Assembly: GCA_000990565.1 (NCBI GenBank) | Contig: LBQC01000001.1 | Location: forward strand, 1 to 56,383 | Reading direction: 5' to 3' | From: Candidatus Roizmanbacteria bacterium GW2011_GWA2_35_19 | GTDB lineage: Bacteria; Patescibacteriota; Microgenomatia; UBA1406; GWC2-37-13 | DNA: 56,383 nt | In this document: positions 29,192-45,539 of the stretch, one piece after another | How positions within the stretch are numbered: position 1 is the first letter of the stretch | Layout of the letters: each line of letters begins with the position of its first letter | The notes under the pieces: generated by a model | Databases searched by the model: none | What the model was told of the DNA's origin: nothing | What the model saw: only the letters and a program-made list of their open reading frames with translations | Made by a program: the position numbers and the translations under genes

Positions 29192-31087
29192 TTAATACAA
29201 TATTCTGAACTTAATAGTTTCAGGAATTTTTTTTAATCTATCGATAGCTTTCTGTGGATATTGTTTGTTAACATCTGTTATCACATAACCAATATCCTCG
29301 TTAGTTTTTAAATATTGCCCCTCGATATTAATATTGTTTTCACCCAAAACACTATTGATTTTGGCTAAAATTCCAGGGACATTTTGGTGAATGTGAATTA
29401 AACGATGAAAATCTTTTTGCTGAATCAATTGAATGTTTGGAAAATTAACACTAAGCATCGTGTTCCCAGTATTGACATTTTCAATAATTTTTTTAGTAAC
29501 AAATTCTCCAATGTTTTTTTGAGCCTCTACAGTATTTCCACCGATATGAGGAGTAAGAACAACGTTAGAAAAATTCTGAAGCTGGCAGTTAAATATTTCT
29601 TTATTTGTTTTTGGTTCATTGGGGAAAACGTCTATAGCGGCTCCAGTAATTTTTTTATTTCTTATATTGTTAGTTAGAGCTTTTATATCAGTAATAAATC
29701 CACGGCTCGAATTCAAAAACAATACGCCATCTCTCATTAATTTAAACTCCGCTTTGCCTATCAAGTTTTTATTAGCTGCTCTTCCATCAACATGAAGGGT
29801 GATAATATCAGCTTTCTTTAACAGCTCCTGAAGCGTTTCACATTTTTTAGCATTACCGAGAGCTAGTTTATCGATGATATCATAAAAATAAACTTCCGTT
29901 CCTAAATTCTCTGCTAAAACTGAAAGCTGAGATCCAACATTACCATAACCAATAATTCCTAATTTTTTCCCTCTTATTTCATAACAATTTTTTACTGACT
30001 TATCCCAAATATTTTTATGCATTTTTGTATTTTTTTCAAATATTTTTCGACTAAGCATAATTATTTCACCGATTATTAATTCAACAACGCTTCTTGTGTT
30101 GCTATATGGTGCATTAAAAGTGATAATTCCGTTTTGTGAAGCTGTTCTTAAATCGATTTGATTAGTACCAATACAAAAAGCGCCGATTACCAATAATTTT
30201 TTTGCTTTAGCTAAAACTTCATATGTAACTTTAGTACGAGATCTTATTCCCAATATAGAAATATCGGCAATTTTTTTTATCAATTCATCTTCATTTAAAG
30301 CGTTTGGTAGAGTTTCGACCTGATAACCCTCGTTAATAAATAAATCGACTGCTGCTTGATCAATATTTTCCAATAATAAAACCTTTATTCGATTTTTTGG
30401 ATAAGAATAGGATCGGGGGAGATGAAGTAAGTACAAAAATTCATCAAAATTTGGCAGTACATAATCGGCCTTTTTAATCACAGAATCTCTTTTCACATTT
30501 TCACAGAAAACAAAGAACTTATCTGATAACCCGACTTTTTTTATTTGGTAATCTGTATAACTATCACCAATGACATAGATTTTTCCAGGTAAATTTAGAG
30601 CTTTTATTTGCTTAATTTTTCCTTCGTCTTGTGACAATAGATTTTTTTTATCAAAACCAATAATTTTACCTCGGTAATCAAAAATAAATTCGTTCGCGAA
30701 AATATTATTTTCGCTAATTCCTAAAGGTATAAATAAAGGCATAATGTATTCTCTAAATCCGCCTGAAACGATATAAATGTTATTAGAGTATTTTTTAAAA
30801 AATTCTTTATTTCGGGCAATTGAAACAGTGATTTTTCGTTTAAGTAGCCTTACTAATTTGCTTAAATCATTTTTATTTGCACTAATCAATTTAATTCTTT
30901 TTTTGAGAGATTGATTGAAAGGAATCTTACCCTCCATTCCAGCCTTCGTTATTTTTTTTATTTTTTCTAAGATTTCTTTTTTTCTTAGATTTTTTTGCAA
31001 AGCAATATTGGCCAATTCATCCAATGCCTCAACCTGTACAAAAGTACTATCAAAATCTATTATAAAAAATATTCTATTTTTATACAT
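29192..31087 (-). CDS. serBA: Fused phosphoserine phosphatase-phosphoglycerate dehydrogenase (SerB-SerA)
   Basis: 631 residues holding two serine-pathway enzymes. Residues 1-225 are a HAD phosphatase: DFDST (nucleophile D11, acid D13), IVSGGFREYI and GDSYTDY. Residues about 233-631 are D-3-phosphoglycerate dehydrogenase: GIRSRTKV, the NAD motif GYGNVG (380-385), FLNSSRG, AAIDVFPNEP and TPHIGGNT, then a C-terminal ACT domain (HIHQNVPGILAKINSVLGENNINIEG in two blocks) that probably senses serine. The protein covers the first and last steps from 3-phosphoglycerate to serine; serC is not in the window. Its Shine-Dalgarno GGGAGG is the 3' arm of the leader terminator. Confidence 0.92.
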   Translation of the reverse strand: MYKNRIFFIIDFDSTFVQVEALDELANIALQKNLRKKEILEKIKKITKAGMEGKIPFNQSLKKRIKLISANKNDLSKLVRLLKRKITVSIARNKEFFKKYSNNIYIVSGGFREYIMPLFIPLGISENNIFANEFIFDYRGKIIGFDKKNLLSQDEGKIKQIKALNLPGKIYVIGDSYTDYQIKKVGLSDKFFVFCENVKRDSVIKKADYVLPNFDEFLYLLHLPRSYSYPKNRIKVLLLENIDQAAVDLFINEGYQVETLPNALNEDELIKKIADISILGIRSRTKVTYEVLAKAKKLLVIGAFCIGTNQIDLRTASQNGIITFNAPYSNTRSVVELIIGEIIMLSRKIFEKNTKMHKNIWDKSVKNCYEIRGKKLGIIGYGNVGSQLSVLAENLGTEVYFYDIIDKLALGNAKKCETLQELLKKADIITLHVDGRAANKNLIGKAEFKLMRDGVLFLNSSRGFITDIKALTNNIRNKKITGAAIDVFPNEPKTNKEIFNCQLQNFSNVVLTPHIGGNTVEAQKNIGEFVTKKIIENVNTGNTMLSVNFPNIQLIQQKDFHRLIHIHQNVPGILAKINSVLGENNINIEGQYLKTNEDIGYVITDVNKQYPQKAIDRLKKIPETIKFRILY

Positions 31088-33741: not shown

Positions 33742-36063
33742 TTATTTTGAAACGCTTACTATTCCGGCGAGCTCAACTTTACCACCACAGTACTTTGTAA
33801 TAATTTCAATACTTTCTTTCAATGATCTTTCAACTTGTGATCGGGAGATGTCATAGATGCCATCAATATTCAAAATTATATCTTTTGTGTCTTCGGTTAC
33901 CGCAGTTCTCTGGGCGTCACGGTAATTGAAATAAATGTTATATCCCCCGACTTGATCGAAATAAGCAACATCGGTTGGTTTATATTTTGTTGGCTCATTA
34001 TCACCTAAAAGTAAAATTTCTTCCCCATCTTTTGGAAATCTTAAAACAGTAGGGAATTTTAGTTTGTCATAATCAAAAGCACCAATTGATACTCGATTTT
34101 TCATGACAATCAAGTTATAAGCATCAACACAAGTATTTATCTCATATAGCCCTTTTCCAAGAGCGATTCTACGCAACAATGCTTCAGGTGAGGGGCGTTT
34201 TGAGTGCCAGTCAAGACCCATTTCTTTATAAAGCTTTCTATATGCTAGTAATTCTGGGTAAGAACTGATAATTTCGTTAGTTAAATCTTTTTGAGACAAA
34301 ATAAAATTATCGATCTCTTCTTTGAGTTTAGGATCGCTTTTTTTGATTTTAATATTCTTTATTACAGCAATTCCGATATTGACGGAGGGATATTTTTCAA
34401 CAAAAGATTTATTGATTGAAAAAATTTCAGGATTATTTAGGGTCGGGAACAGATGGGTGACTTTTTCTTCATTTTCTTTTTCATCGATACTTAATAATTC
34501 GACTACTTTAGTGATTCCCAAAGTATTAATTAAGTCTCCGGCTTTAGGTCCATATTGTTTACCTGTTAAAGAAAAGTAAAAAGCTGAAAAGGCGAGTCTA
34601 GGCTGAATTTTTGCCTCTTTTATGCTTTCAAAAATAGCCACTTGGGGGTCGACATTTTTAATTTTAAGTTTTGTTAAAAGGATTTTTAAAAAGTTTTTTT
34701 GTTCAGGGCTTAGAGTAAAGGTGCTTTCAGCTTGCGGGATTGTTTTTTCGACCGAATACTTTTCAATAAATAATTTTGCATATTTAATTCTTTCTTCAAG
34801 TAAACTCTTTTCAACAATTGTTAATTCACTTCCCTTTTGATTTACAAAAAAAGATTCAATATCTCTCTTGGTTTTTATAAGATTCACGATTGTCCTAAAT
34901 CTTGGCAAAAAAATTCTTTTTAGCGGGAGCGGGCTCACTGCTGATAGCTCAATAATTCTTGCAAAGTCGGAAGCGACCTCACCAGCCTTACCAATTGGCA
35001 AATTATTTTCAATTTTCAAAAAATACGATTCCATTAATTTATCGTAATCGTCAAAAAGATTAGGAATAGTATCGCCATAAGGATCAAAATCTAAGTGAGT
35101 TTTGATTGGGGTTCTCACTTGCATAAAACGGAAAACATCAGGTGGCAAAATCTCCGATACTTCTTTTGCAGATGACCCTATACCTTTTGAAGAAGACATT
35201 TTACGTCCGCCAATTGTAAACCACTCGTACCCACCCATGGCGTCAGGCGCTTGAGTCCCCAAAATCTCACGGCAAAAATGATCGGCCATATCGTATGAGC
35301 CTCCTGAAGACATGTGATCTTTACCAGAAGATTCGACTGTTATTCCAATTACTTTCCAGTGAGCCGGCCAATCTAATCTCCAAACAAGTTTACCATTTTC
35401 ATTAATGGGTTCAATTTTACCATCATAACCGCAACCAGCTGCCCATTCGACCATTTTTTTTTCGCAACGATAATATACATATTTCCCGTCCCATTTGTAA
35501 ACATTTGTCGTGCCAATTTTTCCACATTTTTTACAGATTGGATTATAAGGATACCAATTAGCTGGTTTTTCTTTTTTAATAACTCTTTTAAAAATATCTC
35601 GAACAATATCGGTTTTATCAAGAATTAGTTTAATGACTTCATTCATTTTTCCAGATTGATGCAATTTAGAAGACCAAATAATCTGCGGATGACAATTAAT
35701 GGAATTAAATACATCAATAAATTCCTTTGCATAGTATTCTGCGAAAGACTTAAAACCAGGGGCGGGTGACGGAATTTTATATAATGGGAAACCCATGTAT
35801 TTTTCCCATTTGTTTTTATCCAAGTATGAAGGCATCCCATCCATCTGATCCATGTCGTTAAATACATATGAGATCTTTGCATTCACTCCGATATCCTTCA
35901 AAGCTTTATAAACAAGGTCATGGACAATGACTCCACGAAGAGAGCCAACGTGGATCCGACCCGATGGGGTTTTCATATCATCGACCCATTCAAGGGGTAA
36001 GTTACGTTGTTTTAATCGTTTTGCTTCTCTATCTACCCAAATCATAATTTTTTTGTCCCGCAT
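33742..36063 (-). CDS. lysK: Class I lysyl-tRNA synthetase with fused C-terminal B3/4 editing-type domain
   Basis: Charges tRNA-Lys with the archaeal-type class I fold. Start taken at ATG 36063, which overlaps an upstream short ORF (TGATG); ATG 36045 (MIWVDREA) is the alternative. HIGH is RIHVGS (H38-S41), KMSKS is KMSSSK (from 288), and zinc-type CKKC (177-180) plus C200 and C211 lie between. After about residue 545 a second domain of ~225 residues follows. EALLRRIALGKGLYEINTCVDAYNLIV (in two blocks) and RDAQRTAVTEDTKDIILNI match B3/4 domains, known from PheRS beta where they hydrolyse mischarged tRNA. I know of no standard class I LysRS with this appendage. Confidence 0.9.
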   Translation of the reverse strand: MRDKKIMIWVDREAKRLKQRNLPLEWVDDMKTPSGRIHVGSLRGVIVHDLVYKALKDIGVNAKISYVFNDMDQMDGMPSYLDKNKWEKYMGFPLYKIPSPAPGFKSFAEYYAKEFIDVFNSINCHPQIIWSSKLHQSGKMNEVIKLILDKTDIVRDIFKRVIKKEKPANWYPYNPICKKCGKIGTTNVYKWDGKYVYYRCEKKMVEWAAGCGYDGKIEPINENGKLVWRLDWPAHWKVIGITVESSGKDHMSSGGSYDMADHFCREILGTQAPDAMGGYEWFTIGGRKMSSSKGIGSSAKEVSEILPPDVFRFMQVRTPIKTHLDFDPYGDTIPNLFDDYDKLMESYFLKIENNLPIGKAGEVASDFARIIELSAVSPLPLKRIFLPRFRTIVNLIKTKRDIESFFVNQKGSELTIVEKSLLEERIKYAKLFIEKYSVEKTIPQAESTFTLSPEQKNFLKILLTKLKIKNVDPQVAIFESIKEAKIQPRLAFSAFYFSLTGKQYGPKAGDLINTLGITKVVELLSIDEKENEEKVTHLFPTLNNPEIFSINKSFVEKYPSVNIGIAVIKNIKIKKSDPKLKEEIDNFILSQKDLTNEIISSYPELLAYRKLYKEMGLDWHSKRPSPEALLRRIALGKGLYEINTCVDAYNLIVMKNRVSIGAFDYDKLKFPTVLRFPKDGEEILLLGDNEPTKYKPTDVAYFDQVGGYNIYFNYRDAQRTAVTEDTKDIILNIDGIYDISRSQVERSLKESIEIITKYCGGKVELAGIVSVSK

Positions 36064-36119
36064 CAAACAACGCGGGATTTCGCCCTAACGGGCTCAACTT
36101 CACGGTCTGGCCAGATCAT
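36063..36119 (-). CDS. Short upstream ORF coupled to lysK
   Basis: 18 codons from ATG 36119, ending TGA overlapping the lysK ATG as TGATG. It begins MIWPDREV, echoing MIWVDREA near the LysRS N terminus, at the DNA level too (ATGATcTGG versus ATGATtTGG). A GCCC-GTTA-GGGC hairpin lies inside. It may be a translational coupler or the remnant of a duplicated gene start. Confidence 0.4.
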   Translation of the reverse strand: MIWPDREVEPVRAKSRVV

Positions 36120-36123
36120 ATGT

Positions 36124-37269
36124 TTAGTGACTAGTGACTAGTTGTGAGTCTACTGCCTCTAGAAATTTAATTAGTATATTATACAGTTTTTCAAGAGACT
36201 TAAGAGAAACCCATTCGTTTGGTGCATGGGCGTTAGCACCGATCGGACCAATGCTTAAAACCGTATTGCCATGAGAACCAAAGATGTTCTCATCGGCAAC
36301 CGATGATCTAAAATAAGGAATGGCGGATTCGTTTGTAACTGTCTTTACGGATTTTGCCAGAAATCTTAAATACTTGTTTCCTTTTTCTATTTCGTATCCG
36401 TTTAGAAAAGGAGTCTCTCTTTTGACGAAACCAACCTCAACTTTATAATAATTATTATATTTTTTTAATTTTGCATTGATCATTCTTTTCAATTTACTCA
36501 ACATCTGATCGTGAGTTACTGGTGGTATAATGCTTGATTCCAATATAATCAGAGTTTTTTCCGGTAAAGACATTCCAACCGCGGACGATTCAATTCTATT
36601 GGCAAAAAAATATTGTTTTTTGTCTCCTCGTATTTTATTAAGAGACTTGTTAATAGACAACAGTAATTCCGCGGCAAAAAAGTTCGTATCGTATCTTGTT
36701 TCATAAAAAGCCGTATGTTTTGATTCTCCCTTTACCTCTACCCGGTAAACTGCTCTTCCAATTCTTCCCGTAGCAATTCCTTGAAGTCCATGTTTAAATG
36801 CCGGCTCGGTCGATATGACACAATCAATATTTTTTCCATGCGATGACCTGATAAATTTTGAAGCACCTTTTGATATATTTTCTTCATCGACGCAGAAAAT
36901 TATTTTTAATTTAAAGTTTTTCGGTTCATAGTTGATGAAGTTCAGTATGTTTATAGTCGCGCCGCTTTTCATGTCCCAGGCGCCCAAGCCAGAAGCCCGG
37001 TCGCCCTCAATTTTCAGCTCAAAAGGATTACTCTTCCAGCCCCCGGTAACGTCAACGGTATCGAGGTGAGAATATAATATGACGGTTCTTTTTCCGGCTC
37101 CTTTTTCAACGATAATGTTATCCCTATTTTTTTCTATTTTCTGCCTGACGGGCTTATAACCCCGTTTATTAAAATAGTCAAGTACGAAATCTGCAGTTTT
37201 TTTCTCATTTGGATACACGGAATTAATTTTTACGAGTTGTGAAATAAGATTAATTATGTCTTTTTTCAT
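36124..37269 (-). CDS. M20 family deacylase/peptidase (ArgE/DapE type)
   Basis: 381 residues with the M20 zinc-hydrolase layout: LYSHLDTVDV (His68, Asp70), GAWDMKSG with the bridging Asp, FCVDEENISKGA with the catalytic Glu pair, and a dimerisation domain around RIGRAVYRVEVKGESKHTAF. A late SIGPIGANAHAPNEW supplies the last His. Relatives remove acyl groups from amino acids or their acetyl derivatives. In this operon an acetyl-lysine or acetyl-beta-lysine substrate is plausible but unproved. The extreme C terminus is read from a GTGACTAGT word repeat (36125-36145). Confidence 0.87.
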   Translation of the reverse strand: MKKDIINLISQLVKINSVYPNEKKTADFVLDYFNKRGYKPVRQKIEKNRDNIIVEKGAGKRTVILYSHLDTVDVTGGWKSNPFELKIEGDRASGLGAWDMKSGATINILNFINYEPKNFKLKIIFCVDEENISKGASKFIRSSHGKNIDCVISTEPAFKHGLQGIATGRIGRAVYRVEVKGESKHTAFYETRYDTNFFAAELLLSINKSLNKIRGDKKQYFFANRIESSAVGMSLPEKTLIILESSIIPPVTHDQMLSKLKRMINAKLKKYNNYYKVEVGFVKRETPFLNGYEIEKGNKYLRFLAKSVKTVTNESAIPYFRSSVADENIFGSHGNTVLSIGPIGANAHAPNEWVSLKSLEKLYNILIKFLEAVDSQLVTSH

Positions 37270-37281
37270 AATATCTTAAAA

Positions 37282-39300
37282 TTATAACGGAATTCCTCCA
37301 TATTGTTGTAATGTCTGGGTAACTTTTTCTCCCGTAATGTAAGTCATTGTCATGTGTTCAGTTTGAAAGATCGTACCGTCAGAGCCAATAAGTCTAGTCG
37401 TAAGGCCTGGGTCTCTATCAGAGGAAATTTCAGTATGATTGGGCAATAGTATCTCTGGATTCAGTTGGAAACCTGCTCTTCTATTGGCTTTAAGGACGGC
37501 CGCATCGTTAGCAATCCTGCTATCGGTAAAACTCAGCAAAGGAACGTTGTTAGTCTGGTGCATCACTTGCAATAAATATCTTTTTATCAGTGGCCCAAGA
37601 CCCATTCCCTGCGCTTCTTTCAAGGAGGCGGAGTCTCCAATTTCTGCTAGTTGCATCCCGGCTAGGTTCATCATTTCGGCTCCGGTTATAGCCAATATCC
37701 TGTCATTTGTTCCGTCGACGACCGCAACATAAATATTTGTACCGCAACTGTTTTTAATAGCTTCGACTACGTTATAAGGATAGCTTTTAAAAGCCTCGCC
37801 ATAAACTTCCTTGAGGGAACGTTTATAAAAGGAAAAATTATACGGCGAAATTGTGATGAATCGCAGTTCTCTGGAGAATTTATTTTGAGCAAAATTGAGC
37901 AGATCCTCTCCTCTTTGAGTTTCGAATTTCTGGTCAACGGCTACTTGGTGTACTCTTTCCCTTAAGTTTGTCATTTGAGATTCGTCTGCTACCCTTGTCC
38001 CCGTATTTTCTCCGGCAACGATCCAATACAGCGATTGGTCGGAAACAGAGGGGTTTGGAAAAGCGATGGATGCTTCTACTTTTAAAGGAGAGCCGTCGAG
38101 TCGTTCTCCGATTCTCATCGGTTCTTTAGAAATAGCTTTCAATATCTGCCTGTTTATACCTGGCGGAAGATTACTTAGGGAAACAGCGGCTTGATTAAGT
38201 ACGCCCTTGTCTACAATAGTATCCAATACTAAAACGGCCCTGGTGTCATGGTTACTAATAACTATTTTTCCTGCCTCGCCTATTCCAGGCGCCATTGTGA
38301 TCATTGGATCCTCTTCATCCTTATTATTAATTAGATACATAACGACTAAATCGCCATATTCTCCTCTATTTAAACTGGATGACGTAATATTTGATTTCAT
38401 TCTGCATGAATTTGGTAATAATCCGGCAAATTCAAAACCCTGCCAAAAATTATTTCTTAAAACTGGAATTAAATCGGCTCGAGCTTCAGAATATAATACG
38501 GTTATCCCCGAACTATTTTCTCGCAAATAATCGATTAATACTTGCCTTGCCCAAAAATTGATATTTTTTGCCTCCGGGTCCTCTTCTTTTAATTTAGGAT
38601 CAGTGGCTGAATCAGTCAATTCAACAAGATTCATATTGTCAATAATTGAGGGAATAATCTCTGCAACTGTAAGAGAGACGATTTTACCAGTTTTATCTCT
38701 TACTAACCCAACGACATTATTAATAAACATTTCTTTAATGGTATCTTTATCTAGCCGTACAACATAATCTTGGAAAACTGATTGATATATTTTAAGCACT
38801 TGTTCAAGGTCATTCTCATCAATATTTTGACCATTAATTGATATATGCTGAGTGTAGTCTTTTGGCAACGGATGAGGTTCTTCTTTTTGAGACAGTCGTT
38901 GAGCCTCATGAATAAATCTTAAATCTTCTTCGATGACTTGTTGTGACTGGATTCTATCATCACGATTACCTCCTAAATACACAATCGAGTTTACGGGAGC
39001 TTTTAGTGGTAACGGGATAACTGCATCGACTTGAAGGCGTATTGGAGAAGAAACCCGGCCATCTAATGAAGTCATAACATCATTTGGTGTTAAATCTCCC
39101 GCAGTAAGTACACGTGCGGTTATTCTTGTTATGTCATCATAATTTGGTGAAAGGGGTAATAATTGTGCATTTATAGCATAAGTTAATGAATCCATATCAT
39201 CAACTGGACTAGTAAGAAATCCTTTAGCTCTACGATTGGGTTTATCAAAAGAAATTTTACCCATAGCACCTGAACTGGTTCCTAAGTTTTCAAAAGTCAT
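37282..39300 (-). CDS. Large protein with two GNAT domains, AblB-like
   Basis: 672 residues. After an unrecognised ~155-residue N-terminal part, a first GNAT-like domain (about 165-320) has VFQDYVVRLDKDTIKEMF, LVELTDSATDPK, ITVLYSEARADLIPVLRNNFWQGFEFAGLLPN. A second (about 475-610) has VYGEAFKSYPYNVVEAI, IYVAVVDGTNDRILAITGAE, EIGDSASLKEAQGMGLGPLIKRYLL and DSRIANDAAVLKANRRAGFQ. The order E-x-(T/G)DSAx in both resembles beta-lysine N-acetyltransferase AblB. The gene overlaps kamA by 11 bp, so translation is coupled. Substrate assignment rests on this context. Confidence 0.7.
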   Translation of the reverse strand: MTFENLGTSSGAMGKISFDKPNRRAKGFLTSPVDDMDSLTYAINAQLLPLSPNYDDITRITARVLTAGDLTPNDVMTSLDGRVSSPIRLQVDAVIPLPLKAPVNSIVYLGGNRDDRIQSQQVIEEDLRFIHEAQRLSQKEEPHPLPKDYTQHISINGQNIDENDLEQVLKIYQSVFQDYVVRLDKDTIKEMFINNVVGLVRDKTGKIVSLTVAEIIPSIIDNMNLVELTDSATDPKLKEEDPEAKNINFWARQVLIDYLRENSSGITVLYSEARADLIPVLRNNFWQGFEFAGLLPNSCRMKSNITSSSLNRGEYGDLVVMYLINNKDEEDPMITMAPGIGEAGKIVISNHDTRAVLVLDTIVDKGVLNQAAVSLSNLPPGINRQILKAISKEPMRIGERLDGSPLKVEASIAFPNPSVSDQSLYWIVAGENTGTRVADESQMTNLRERVHQVAVDQKFETQRGEDLLNFAQNKFSRELRFITISPYNFSFYKRSLKEVYGEAFKSYPYNVVEAIKNSCGTNIYVAVVDGTNDRILAITGAEMMNLAGMQLAEIGDSASLKEAQGMGLGPLIKRYLLQVMHQTNNVPLLSFTDSRIANDAAVLKANRRAGFQLNPEILLPNHTEISSDRDPGLTTRLIGSDGTIFQTEHMTMTYITGEKVTQTLQQYGGIPL

Positions 39301-40594
39301 TTCTTTTATGCCTCCTGTTATGCCTTTTTAAATTTTGGGGGATGATGTTAGTTTTATCATTATCTGAAAGTAATTCAGCCACTCCGGTTAAATTTTTTTT
39401 ATCACTTTCATCCATATATTTTTCAATACTCAATGGAGGTTCATAAGTATAATTTGACGGTTCGGTGTAATTACAAATTAACCCCTCATAATTCCGTAAA
39501 ACATATTTGTTGTGTCCTTGGGACAGGATATAATTTGGCATCACGGGAATTTTTCCACCGCCACCGATTCCGTCAACGACAAAAGTTGGTACAGCAAAAC
39601 CACTAGTATGACCGCGGAGATGCTCGATGATTTCTATGCCCTCGGAGACTTTAGTTCTAAAATGTTCTATTCCCTGACTTAAGTCACATTGATAGATATA
39701 GTATGGTCGGACACGATTGGCAACCAATAACTTTACCAGTTTTTTCATTACTAGCGGATGATTATTTATTCGTCGTAAAAGTACCGATTGGTTTCCAAGC
39801 GGAATTCCGGCGTCAGCTAAACGATTGCAGGCGGAGGCGGCAAGATCAGTCATTTCTTTAGGATGATTAAAATGAGTATTAATCCATAAAGGATGATATT
39901 TTTTTAACATTGAACAAAGTTTTTTATTAATTCTCATAGGCATTGTCACGGGGATTCTTGTGCCGATTCTGACGATCTCCACATGGTCAATGCTCCGGAT
40001 AAGTTTTAGTATTTTTTCAAGATAATATTCAGGCAAGGTTAAAGGATCACCTCCCGAAATTAAAACGTCACGTATTGTTTTAGTTCTTTTTATATACTCG
40101 GCCGCTTTTAAGATCTTCTGCCAGGAAGTCGGTAGATCAGTTTCTCCGGCGTGACGCCTGCGGGTGCAGTGGCGGCAGTACATCGCGCATTGGTAAGTAA
40201 CATAAATTATCAGACGATCGGGATATCGATGGGTCAAAACCCCTTCAAGACCGGGGACCGGACAGTCTTCCTCTTCGTGAAGGGGATCGGAAAAATCGCT
40301 TGAACAAATTTTAGTTTCTTCGGTGGTTGGAACAGCTTGTAATCTAATCGGATCAAGCTTATCGTTTTTATCTATCTGAGATAAATAATATGGCGTAATT
40401 GTCATCCTTAATGTTTTTAGCGAGTTTTTTATTTCTGCCGTTTCTTCATCGGTAAGTACTAGGATTTTTTGCAATACAGTAGGATCCGAGATGCGATTTT
40501 GCAGTTGCCAACGGTAATCTAGCCAATCGCGATCTGATACGGCTTTCCAATACTCATTTTTTTTAGATTTTTGAAAATATCTAAGTTTAATCAT
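39290..40594 (-). CDS. kamA: Lysine 2,3-aminomutase (radical SAM, PLP)
   Basis: Converts L-lysine to beta-lysine. 434 residues with the radical-SAM cluster motif CAMYCRHC (C136, C140, C143) in YVTYQCAMYCRHCTRRRHAG. The PLP-binding Lys348 lies in DGIGGGGKIPVMPNY. The two Asp residues that select lysine over glutamate in this family are present: D304 in CDLSQGIEHFR and D341 in VVDGIGGGGK. This favours lysine aminomutase over glutamate aminomutase and over EpmB. It is first in a four-gene operon and has a near-consensus promoter 30 bases upstream. Confidence 0.92.
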   Translation of the reverse strand: MIKLRYFQKSKKNEYWKAVSDRDWLDYRWQLQNRISDPTVLQKILVLTDEETAEIKNSLKTLRMTITPYYLSQIDKNDKLDPIRLQAVPTTEETKICSSDFSDPLHEEEDCPVPGLEGVLTHRYPDRLIIYVTYQCAMYCRHCTRRRHAGETDLPTSWQKILKAAEYIKRTKTIRDVLISGGDPLTLPEYYLEKILKLIRSIDHVEIVRIGTRIPVTMPMRINKKLCSMLKKYHPLWINTHFNHPKEMTDLAASACNRLADAGIPLGNQSVLLRRINNHPLVMKKLVKLLVANRVRPYYIYQCDLSQGIEHFRTKVSEGIEIIEHLRGHTSGFAVPTFVVDGIGGGGKIPVMPNYILSQGHNKYVLRNYEGLICNYTEPSNYTYEPPLSIEKYMDESDKKNLTGVAELLSDNDKTNIIPQNLKRHNRRHKRNDF

Positions 40595-43821: not shown

Positions 43822-45539
43822 TTACTTAGCGTATATTCTGTAGAGATTGCTCCCAATTTTTTCAAATTTGTAGATCTTTAGACTACCAATTTCTGAAGTA
43901 TTTTTAACATGCGGGCCACCGCAGAACTCTTTTGAGTAGCTGCCAACGAAATATACCTTAACCATTTCCGGATATTTTTCACGGAAAAAAGATCGTGCTC
44001 CAATTTTTAATGCCTCATCTTTCGGAACAATCTTAAACTCAACTGGTAATGATTCTTTAATTTTTTGATTGATTATTTCTTCAATTTTTCTCAAATCGTT
44101 TTCTTCAAGTTTTTTAATTGAATAAAAATCGAATCTCAATCTCTCAACCGTAATATTTGATCCCTCTTGGCGGACATCACTTCCCAAAACGTCAAACAAT
44201 GCCTGATGAAGTAGGTGAGTCGCGGTATGATATTTAATGGTTTGCACTGCATGATCGGCGAGGCCACCTTTAAACATACCGACTGAGTAAGCTCGCGATT
44301 TTGTTTTATGCTCGTTTAATAATTTTTCTACTTTCTTAAAATCTCCTGTCCAGTTTAAGTCATTTACGATAATATCTAAAGGTAGGCCATAAGTTGTGAT
44401 AAATTCAAAAACTTCTTCAGGAGTTATTGGGCCATAAGATGGTCCTACGCCAACTAACTCTGTTCCTACAGGACCTGGTACTGAAGATTTTGAAGAAAGT
44501 AATTTATGCCATTTATCTAAAGCTTTTTTAAGAGTAATCATGAATCCATCTGTTTCGTTATCAATTATTTCTTTCATGTCAATTAGTTTTTCAATTTCCG
44601 GGTAACTATTCTTATAAATATCTATCACGGGATTTATTAATGTAGATATTTTACTTTTTTGATCCCCCCATTTATACACTTGCATGACTGATTTTCTCAA
44701 TAAACGTCTTAAAACATATCCTTGAGCTTTATTGGAGGGCGTTATACCTGAAAATAATAGAAATGATGCAGCCTTGATGTGATCAGCTAGAATTCTAAAC
44801 GAATATTGAACGTTCTTATCTGTATATTTAAATTTAGAAAAAATATTAATTTCAATTTCTTCAATAATTTTTTTAAAAACACTGGTAAGAAAAACATCCG
44901 GGTCATCATTCAAGGCCGCTAAAATTCTTTCCAATCCTCCACCAAAGTCGACATTCATTGCGGGGAGTTCTTGGAAGTCACCAGACGGCGCCTTCTTATA
45001 TTGCATAAAGACACAATTTCCAATTTCCATAAAGCGGCCACAGTCACAATTTGGGTGGCATTTTTCTCCGAATTTTTTATCATGTGTGACTTGAGTAAAC
45101 TCATAAAAAACTTCGGAGTCCGGTCCGCCTGGCTCGCCAGCCGGCATGTTATCAGGGACGCCTGCCCTTGACCACCAGTTCTTTTCCGGTCCGTATTTGA
45201 AGATTCTATTTTCCGGAAGCCCAAGTTTTTTCCAGATCTCGATTGAATCCACATCGGGTGGTAAATTATTTTTCTTATCTCCCGCAAAGATGGTGACATA
45301 TAATTTATCTTTTGGTAAACCAAGTTCTGAGGTCAGGAATTCCCAAAACCAGGAGATCTGCTCTTTTTTGAAATAATCACCCAGTGACCAATTACCCATC
45401 ATTTCAAAGAAAGTTGTGTGGCGGTTATCACCGACTTCTTCAATGTCCTGGGACGGGGAATAGGGGGAATTTCCTTATGACTATTCTTTTCCCAAAACTT
45501 GGCAAATTTTTCTCTAAGTTGGACATGGGTTAAAGACAT
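43822..45539 (-). pseudogene. alaS: Alanyl-tRNA synthetase gene with internal deletion and frameshift near the start
   Basis: The N-terminal start is present (ATG 45539, MSLTHVQLREKFAKFWEKN, then HKEIP) but stops at 45399. The rest continues in another frame from DIEEVGDNRHTTFFEMMGNW (ORF from 45402). About 45-50 residues containing class II motif 1 are missing at the junction. The remainder has the catalytic core (GFMITLKKALDKW, GYVLRRLLRK) and ends with the editing domain zinc motif FCGGPHV, with no C-Ala domain. A CHPNCDCGRFMEIGN insert and a repeat-derived VPGPVGTELVGVGPSYG loop are present. It is either a broken gene or a local assembly error, since AlaRS is essential. Confidence 0.8.

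Follow-up and report, generated by a model that had tools for sequence, protein, structure and literature searches.

A lysyl-tRNA synthetase fused to a CtdA-branch B3/4 domain, a probable tRNA(Lys) editing module, in candidate-phylum bacteria

Here we describe a class I lysyl-tRNA synthetase (LysRS) that runs on, in one reading frame, into a B3/4 domain. It is encoded on contig LBQC01000001.1 of Candidatus Roizmanbacteria bacterium GW2011_GWA2_35_19, of which positions 1 to 56,383 (56,383 nucleotides, hereafter the window) were analysed. The closest characterised relative of the whole extension, in both sequence and fold, is CtdA, a free-standing and proven deacylase of canavanyl-tRNA(Arg) from Pseudomonas canavaninivorans (PMC10018355), and the same domain is found on LysRS enzymes of both classes. 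The fused protein is probably a LysRS with a tethered CtdA-branch post-transfer editing module, which would act on tRNA(Lys). The gene and its parts are as follows.

33742-36066, minus strand: fused class I LysRS–B3/4 open reading frame (ORF), 774 codons counted from TTG, a single unbroken chain
34489..36045, minus strand: class I LysRS catalytic and anticodon-binding region, residues 8-526 (TIGR00467, PF01921)
35941-35952, minus strand: HVGS motif (sequence)
35185-35202, minus strand: KMSSSK motif (sequence)
34462..34489, minus strand: inter-module linker, about residues 527-535 (full-length AlphaFold 2 (AF2) model, predicted local distance difference test (pLDDT) below 50 around the stretch)
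33745..34464, minus strand: CtdA-type B3/4 domain, residues 535-774, of full standalone-protein length (PF03483, CtdA profile match, AF2/Foldseek)
33826-34242, minus strand: Pfam core of the B3/4 domain (PF03483)
36046..36130, minus strand: leader with hairpin immediately 5′ of the LysRS start (fold z −2.1)

An earlier reading of this DNA from its letters and ORFs (the sequence-only reading) had proposed a full class I LysRS with RIHVGS and KMSSSK signatures, fused to a B3/4 editing-type domain, and both halves held up. Residues 8–526 matched TIGR00467 with 334 bits (cut-off 147.55), PF01921 was also matched in the catalytic and anticodon-binding region, and the two signatures lie at residues 37–42 and 289–294; Pfam B3_4 (PF03483) matched residues 609–747 with 80 bits (E = 2e-22, gathering cut-off 29.3), in agreement with the fold described below. 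The full catalytic and anticodon-binding regions, HVGS and KMSSSK are shared with other class I LysRS enzymes (TIGR00467; PDB 1irx), whereas the solved 1irx protein (523 amino acids) has no editing domain. Chance joining and an assembly chimera were ruled out by full-length fusions in 18 further related genomes, nearly all in one unbroken frame, which confirms that the fusion is real. The host genome (1.12 Mb, 87% complete) has a single class I LysRS, the fused gene, and a housekeeping LysRS of class II was looked for and not found in this 87% complete assembly; the class II-like matches that it did give were to an EpmA/GenX-like paralogue and to a synthetase of the Asx type, and its second B3/4 domain sits in PheT, separate from the LysRS fusion. 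As part of the best explanation, the fused protein is predicted to be the housekeeping LysRS that charges lysine in this cell. Its true start is probably the ATG at 36043–36045 (MIWVDREAK), giving a product of 767 amino acids, because relatives begin at the same MIW-D motif and because both the TTG and the ATG of the sequence-only reading fall inside the upstream hairpin. The hairpin had no Rfam match, and guanidine riboswitches, lysine riboswitches and T-boxes were looked for and not found; a 25-nt core of the leader recurs, as one identical copy at the corresponding position before LysRS, in only one other genome (G015) among 15 searched.

The sequence-only reading had linked the extension to the B3/4 domain of phenylalanyl-tRNA synthetase (PheRS); the fold is indeed B3/4, but the branch is that of CtdA. 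A profile of the extension searched against the PDB ranked CtdA first (9mkl, 6e-18; 9f7e, 6e-17), with PheRS far behind (2.5e-6). An AlphaFold model of the domain (pLDDT 95.1; predicted template modelling score (pTM) 0.91) superposed in Foldseek on CtdA 9mkl and 9f7e with template modelling (TM) scores of 0.77 and 0.81 over about 230 columns, followed by the PheRS beta subunit PheT (E = 1e-10 to 1e-11). Because CtdA matched the whole extension, a protein of full CtdA length, reaching beyond the Pfam core, has been fused. By sequence profile and predicted fold, the extension is a member of the CtdA branch (COG3382-like) of B3/4 domains and not of the PheRS branch. A plain PheRS-type B3/4 domain was rejected, as both profile and fold lie nearer to CtdA; PheT shares the fold and a Phe-Asp pair at 664–665, but glycine (Gly662) replaces its catalytic histidine in the LysRS extension, and the chain lacks the PheT domains. 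The extension and CtdA have in common the branch, the domain length, the superposed fold and a conserved core of D648, N651, D665, D704, N714 and T721; they differ in that CtdA is a separate protein with a tRNA(Arg) substrate, whereas the extension is fused to LysRS, and the two are 16–17% identical in the structural alignment.

LysRS fusions of this kind occur widely, both in Microgenomates and in other candidate-phylum bacteria. Among 57 related genomes, 19 (that of the window included) carried a fused class I LysRS and 11 an unfused one of about 525–585 amino acids. A scan of 84,980 species, which used peptide patterns typical of the window's subgroup and so undercounts other forms, returned 66 loci, nearly all from candidate-phylum bacteria: 60 class I fusions, 5 class II fusions and 1 fragment. 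Most of the genomes compared are metagenome-assembled, and single outliers, such as L161 in a 4.2-Mb 'Deltaproteobacteria' bin, are probably misbinned. In genome G027, a class II LysRS (OB fold and class II core) ends in the same domain, 57% identical to that of the window over residues 538–773, and a sample of the phylum yielded more class II LysRS–B3/4 fusions; no class I LysRS was found in the class II fusion genomes examined. In a tree of 60 domains, all LysRS-fused ones except L084 formed one clade (support 99/96), apart from free forms and those fused to arginyl-tRNA synthetase (ArgRS), and inside this clade the class II partners were scattered among the class I partners. Forcing the class II cases into one clade was rejected (132 log-likelihood units worse; approximately unbiased test, p = 4.7e-7); L084, outside the main clade, is one independent additional class II LysRS fusion. 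Read most simply, this tree reflects several replacements of the synthetase core beside a B3/4 domain that was retained. Class II LysRS enzymes of the phylum also carry C-terminal HD domains (L209–L212) or a DUF2000-like tail (L213); L081 is a LysRS–B3/4–HD protein, and L087 combines HD, B3/4 and DUF2000 on one LysRS.

That the domain was retained through class I/class II swaps suggests that it works on tRNA(Lys), most likely by hydrolysing tRNA(Lys) that has been mischarged. We propose that the class I core, or the class II core in relatives, would charge tRNA(Lys), that the flexibly linked module would then sample the CCA end, and that it would hydrolyse the ester if a noncognate amino acid had been passed by both kinds of LysRS, sparing Lys-tRNA(Lys). 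The amino acid removed is more likely a lysine analogue acquired from a host or from the surroundings, or one attached by a natural charging error, such as those that give Arg-, Thr- or Met-tRNA(Lys), than the beta-lysine considered below. Escherichia coli LysRS is reported to mischarge tRNA(Lys) with arginine, threonine, methionine and others and to leave the Arg-, Thr- and Met-tRNA(Lys) products undeacylated (PMC5370406), so there is an unmet need for editing. The active site of class II LysRS itself edits out homocysteine, homoserine and ornithine, and the E. coli enzyme removes ornithine and homocysteine before transfer (PMC5370406); ornithine is therefore an unlikely target of a post-transfer domain.

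Across LysRS-fused, ArgRS-fused and free CtdA-type domains, the six shared core residues are near-invariant, with few exceptions. Positions 649, 654, 660, 664, 713 and 717 change together in the LysRS group relative to CtdA, most ArgRS-fused forms and free forms. From CtdA to the LysRS extension, E becomes F at 664, L becomes A at 649, S becomes V at 654 and W becomes F at 713, and the pocket motifs of CtdA proper (VGGE[DN] and NWR[QE]) are not matched, this and other LysRS fusions having IGAFD and NYRDA instead. Since the pocket differs from that of CtdA, the substrate of CtdA cannot be transferred to the LysRS domain. The CtdA activity on canavanyl-tRNA(Arg) might nevertheless simply ride on LysRS, as the fold and family are those of CtdA and the class II fusion L084 retains a CtdA-like pocket. 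We give this the lowest probability of the explanations considered, because the Glu that is typical at position 664 in CtdA, and in most forms that are free or fused to ArgRS, gives way to Phe or Tyr in each of the 64 class I LysRS fusions and in every class II LysRS fusion but one, and because ArgRS enzymes of the same phylum have B3/4 fusions of their own. An aromatic residue at 664 also occurs in two divergent ArgRS fusions, two tyrosyl-tRNA synthetase (TyrRS) fusions and PheT, which weakens it as a LysRS-only signature. Conservation is higher in the B3/4 core than in the catalytic core, as judged both by mean identity (0.72 versus 0.68) and by nonsynonymous divergence (dN 0.13–0.17 versus 0.19–0.22). 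This pattern is compatible with a hydrolase that remains active and whose pocket has been re-tuned, though it falls short of proof.

Three observations weigh against an editing LysRS. One is the altered pocket, with Phe for Glu at 664. Another is the full-length AF2 model (pLDDT 88.8; pTM 0.58), in which two well-folded modules are undocked, joined by a disordered linker and undefined in mutual orientation, an arrangement that would also be expected of a tethered module. The third is that the domain was lost several times in close relatives and is thus dispensable in some settings: unfused class I LysRS genes are nested among fused ones, with at least 7 fused/unfused changes forced by the supported branches of a quick tree. 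No B3/4 remnant was found downstream of the unfused LysRS genes, and repeated loss without remnant indicates that the domain is conditionally useful; smaller genomes tend to be without it, a trend that is not significant (Mann–Whitney p = 0.085). Such losses would also suit a non-catalytic appendix that has given up B3/4 hydrolysis and adds only tRNA binding or stability, as would a side-chain pocket unlike those of both CtdA and PheRS and the missing PheRS editing histidine, which CtdA lacks as well. We regard an appendix as unlikely, since the CtdA core residues are kept, the domain has changed less than the catalytic core, and a domain that served only as an anchor should not have stayed with tRNA(Lys) from one synthetase class to an unrelated one while keeping its pocket positions conserved.

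As a further point in favour of editing, fusions of related B3/4 domains to other synthetases, including the methionyl enzyme (MetRS), come from candidate-phylum genomes of the same phylum as the LysRS fusions.

ArgRS, N-terminal related B3/4: L093-095, L099, L100, L103, L104 and L221; L223 by profile only
TyrRS, N-terminal related B3/4: L218, L219, L220 and L224; L218 also with a tRNA_edit domain
MetRS, C-terminal related B3/4: L222

With some reserve, we favour the view that the CtdA-type B3/4 domain is a plug-in proofreading cassette that candidate-phylum bacteria use on several synthetases not known to carry one (class I and class II LysRS, ArgRS, TyrRS and MetRS). On this view the LysRS version is an editor in its own right, specific for lysine, and has persisted while its catalytic half was repeatedly replaced by a non-homologous enzyme. 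No description of a LysRS–B3/4 fusion was found in the literature, of which coverage was partial and in which the slash of 'B3/4' is unsearchable, making this weak evidence of absence; within the same partial coverage, neither LysRS class was found described with a dedicated post-transfer editing domain. Retention of the proofreading half through the exchange of the loading half suggests that wrongly loaded tRNA(Lys) is erased by a route for which we found no earlier description. With one domain following tRNA(Lys) from one synthetase fold to an unrelated one, nature has in effect run an experiment, in which domain function rather than enzyme history would explain why the domain is there. The outcome suggests that bacteria with reduced genomes and a scavenging habit are under selection against one specific error on lysine tRNA. 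The fused protein and its close relatives without the domain form a directly testable set.

The sequence-only reading had also placed the lysine 2,3-aminomutase KamA in the same putative operon, correctly (TIGR03820, 564 bits), and had suggested that a built-in proofreader might act against its product, beta-lysine, or against another lysine analogue. The genes upstream of LysRS are the following.

36124..37269, minus strand: M20 metallo-hydrolase of ArgE/DapE/LysK type, the next gene upstream of LysRS in the putative operon (Pfam/NCBIfam)
37282..39300, minus strand: AblB-like (beta-lysine acetyltransferase-like) protein, 672 amino acids (TIGR03827, 61.5 bits, below the cut-off of 205)
39290..40594, minus strand: lysine 2,3-aminomutase KamA/AblA (TIGR03820, 564 bits, above the cut-off)

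On the beta-lysine explanation, the domain was added because beta-lysine made by KamA is mischarged onto tRNA(Lys). In its favour, beyond the operon of the window, kamA adjoins or lies near the fused LysRS in all three independent genomes found with both (window, L070, L178), so that the fusion is not confined to genomes without beta-lysine genes, and 2 of the 3 kamA-bearing genomes in a sample of 379 from the phylum carry a LysRS fusion. That overlap falls to 1 of 2 without the genome of the window (hypergeometric p = 0.057), and kamA of the AblA type was found in just 2 of the 19 genomes with a fused class I LysRS and in 1 of 50 further fusion genomes; a match in G035 is probably misbinned (its contig, of 6.5 kb, encodes proteins identical to G006 proteins). 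With nearly all fusion genomes lacking kamA, beta-lysine was rejected as a general target and is a highly improbable reason for the fusion, though it may have a local role in those few genomes. The gene order is KamA–AblB-like–M20–LysRS in the window, KamA–LysRS in G006 (with LysX/Y/Z/J-like genes upstream, from a reading of ORFs) and KamA–M20–gap–LysRS in a CPR3 genome. The order GreA–KamA–M20–LysRS–SerB–SerRS is common to the window and the CPR3 block, and a shared inherited or transferred block explains the kamA–LysRS adjacency as well as function does.

The AblB-like protein far exceeds the 266 positions of the AblB model, and the remainder of its chain has no Pfam match. The EpmA/GenX-like LysRS paralogue (G000:C3:44915-45898, L214; a 355-amino-acid frame) is present in most of these genomes, in many of which kamA was not found. 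Two further proteins of the window are noted here.

29192-31087, minus strand: SerB–SerA fusion, a phosphoserine phosphatase-like HAD domain and phosphoglycerate dehydrogenase in one 631-amino-acid chain
43822-45402, minus strand: AlaRS-like protein, 526 amino acids, whose catalytic-domain match begins only at profile position 88
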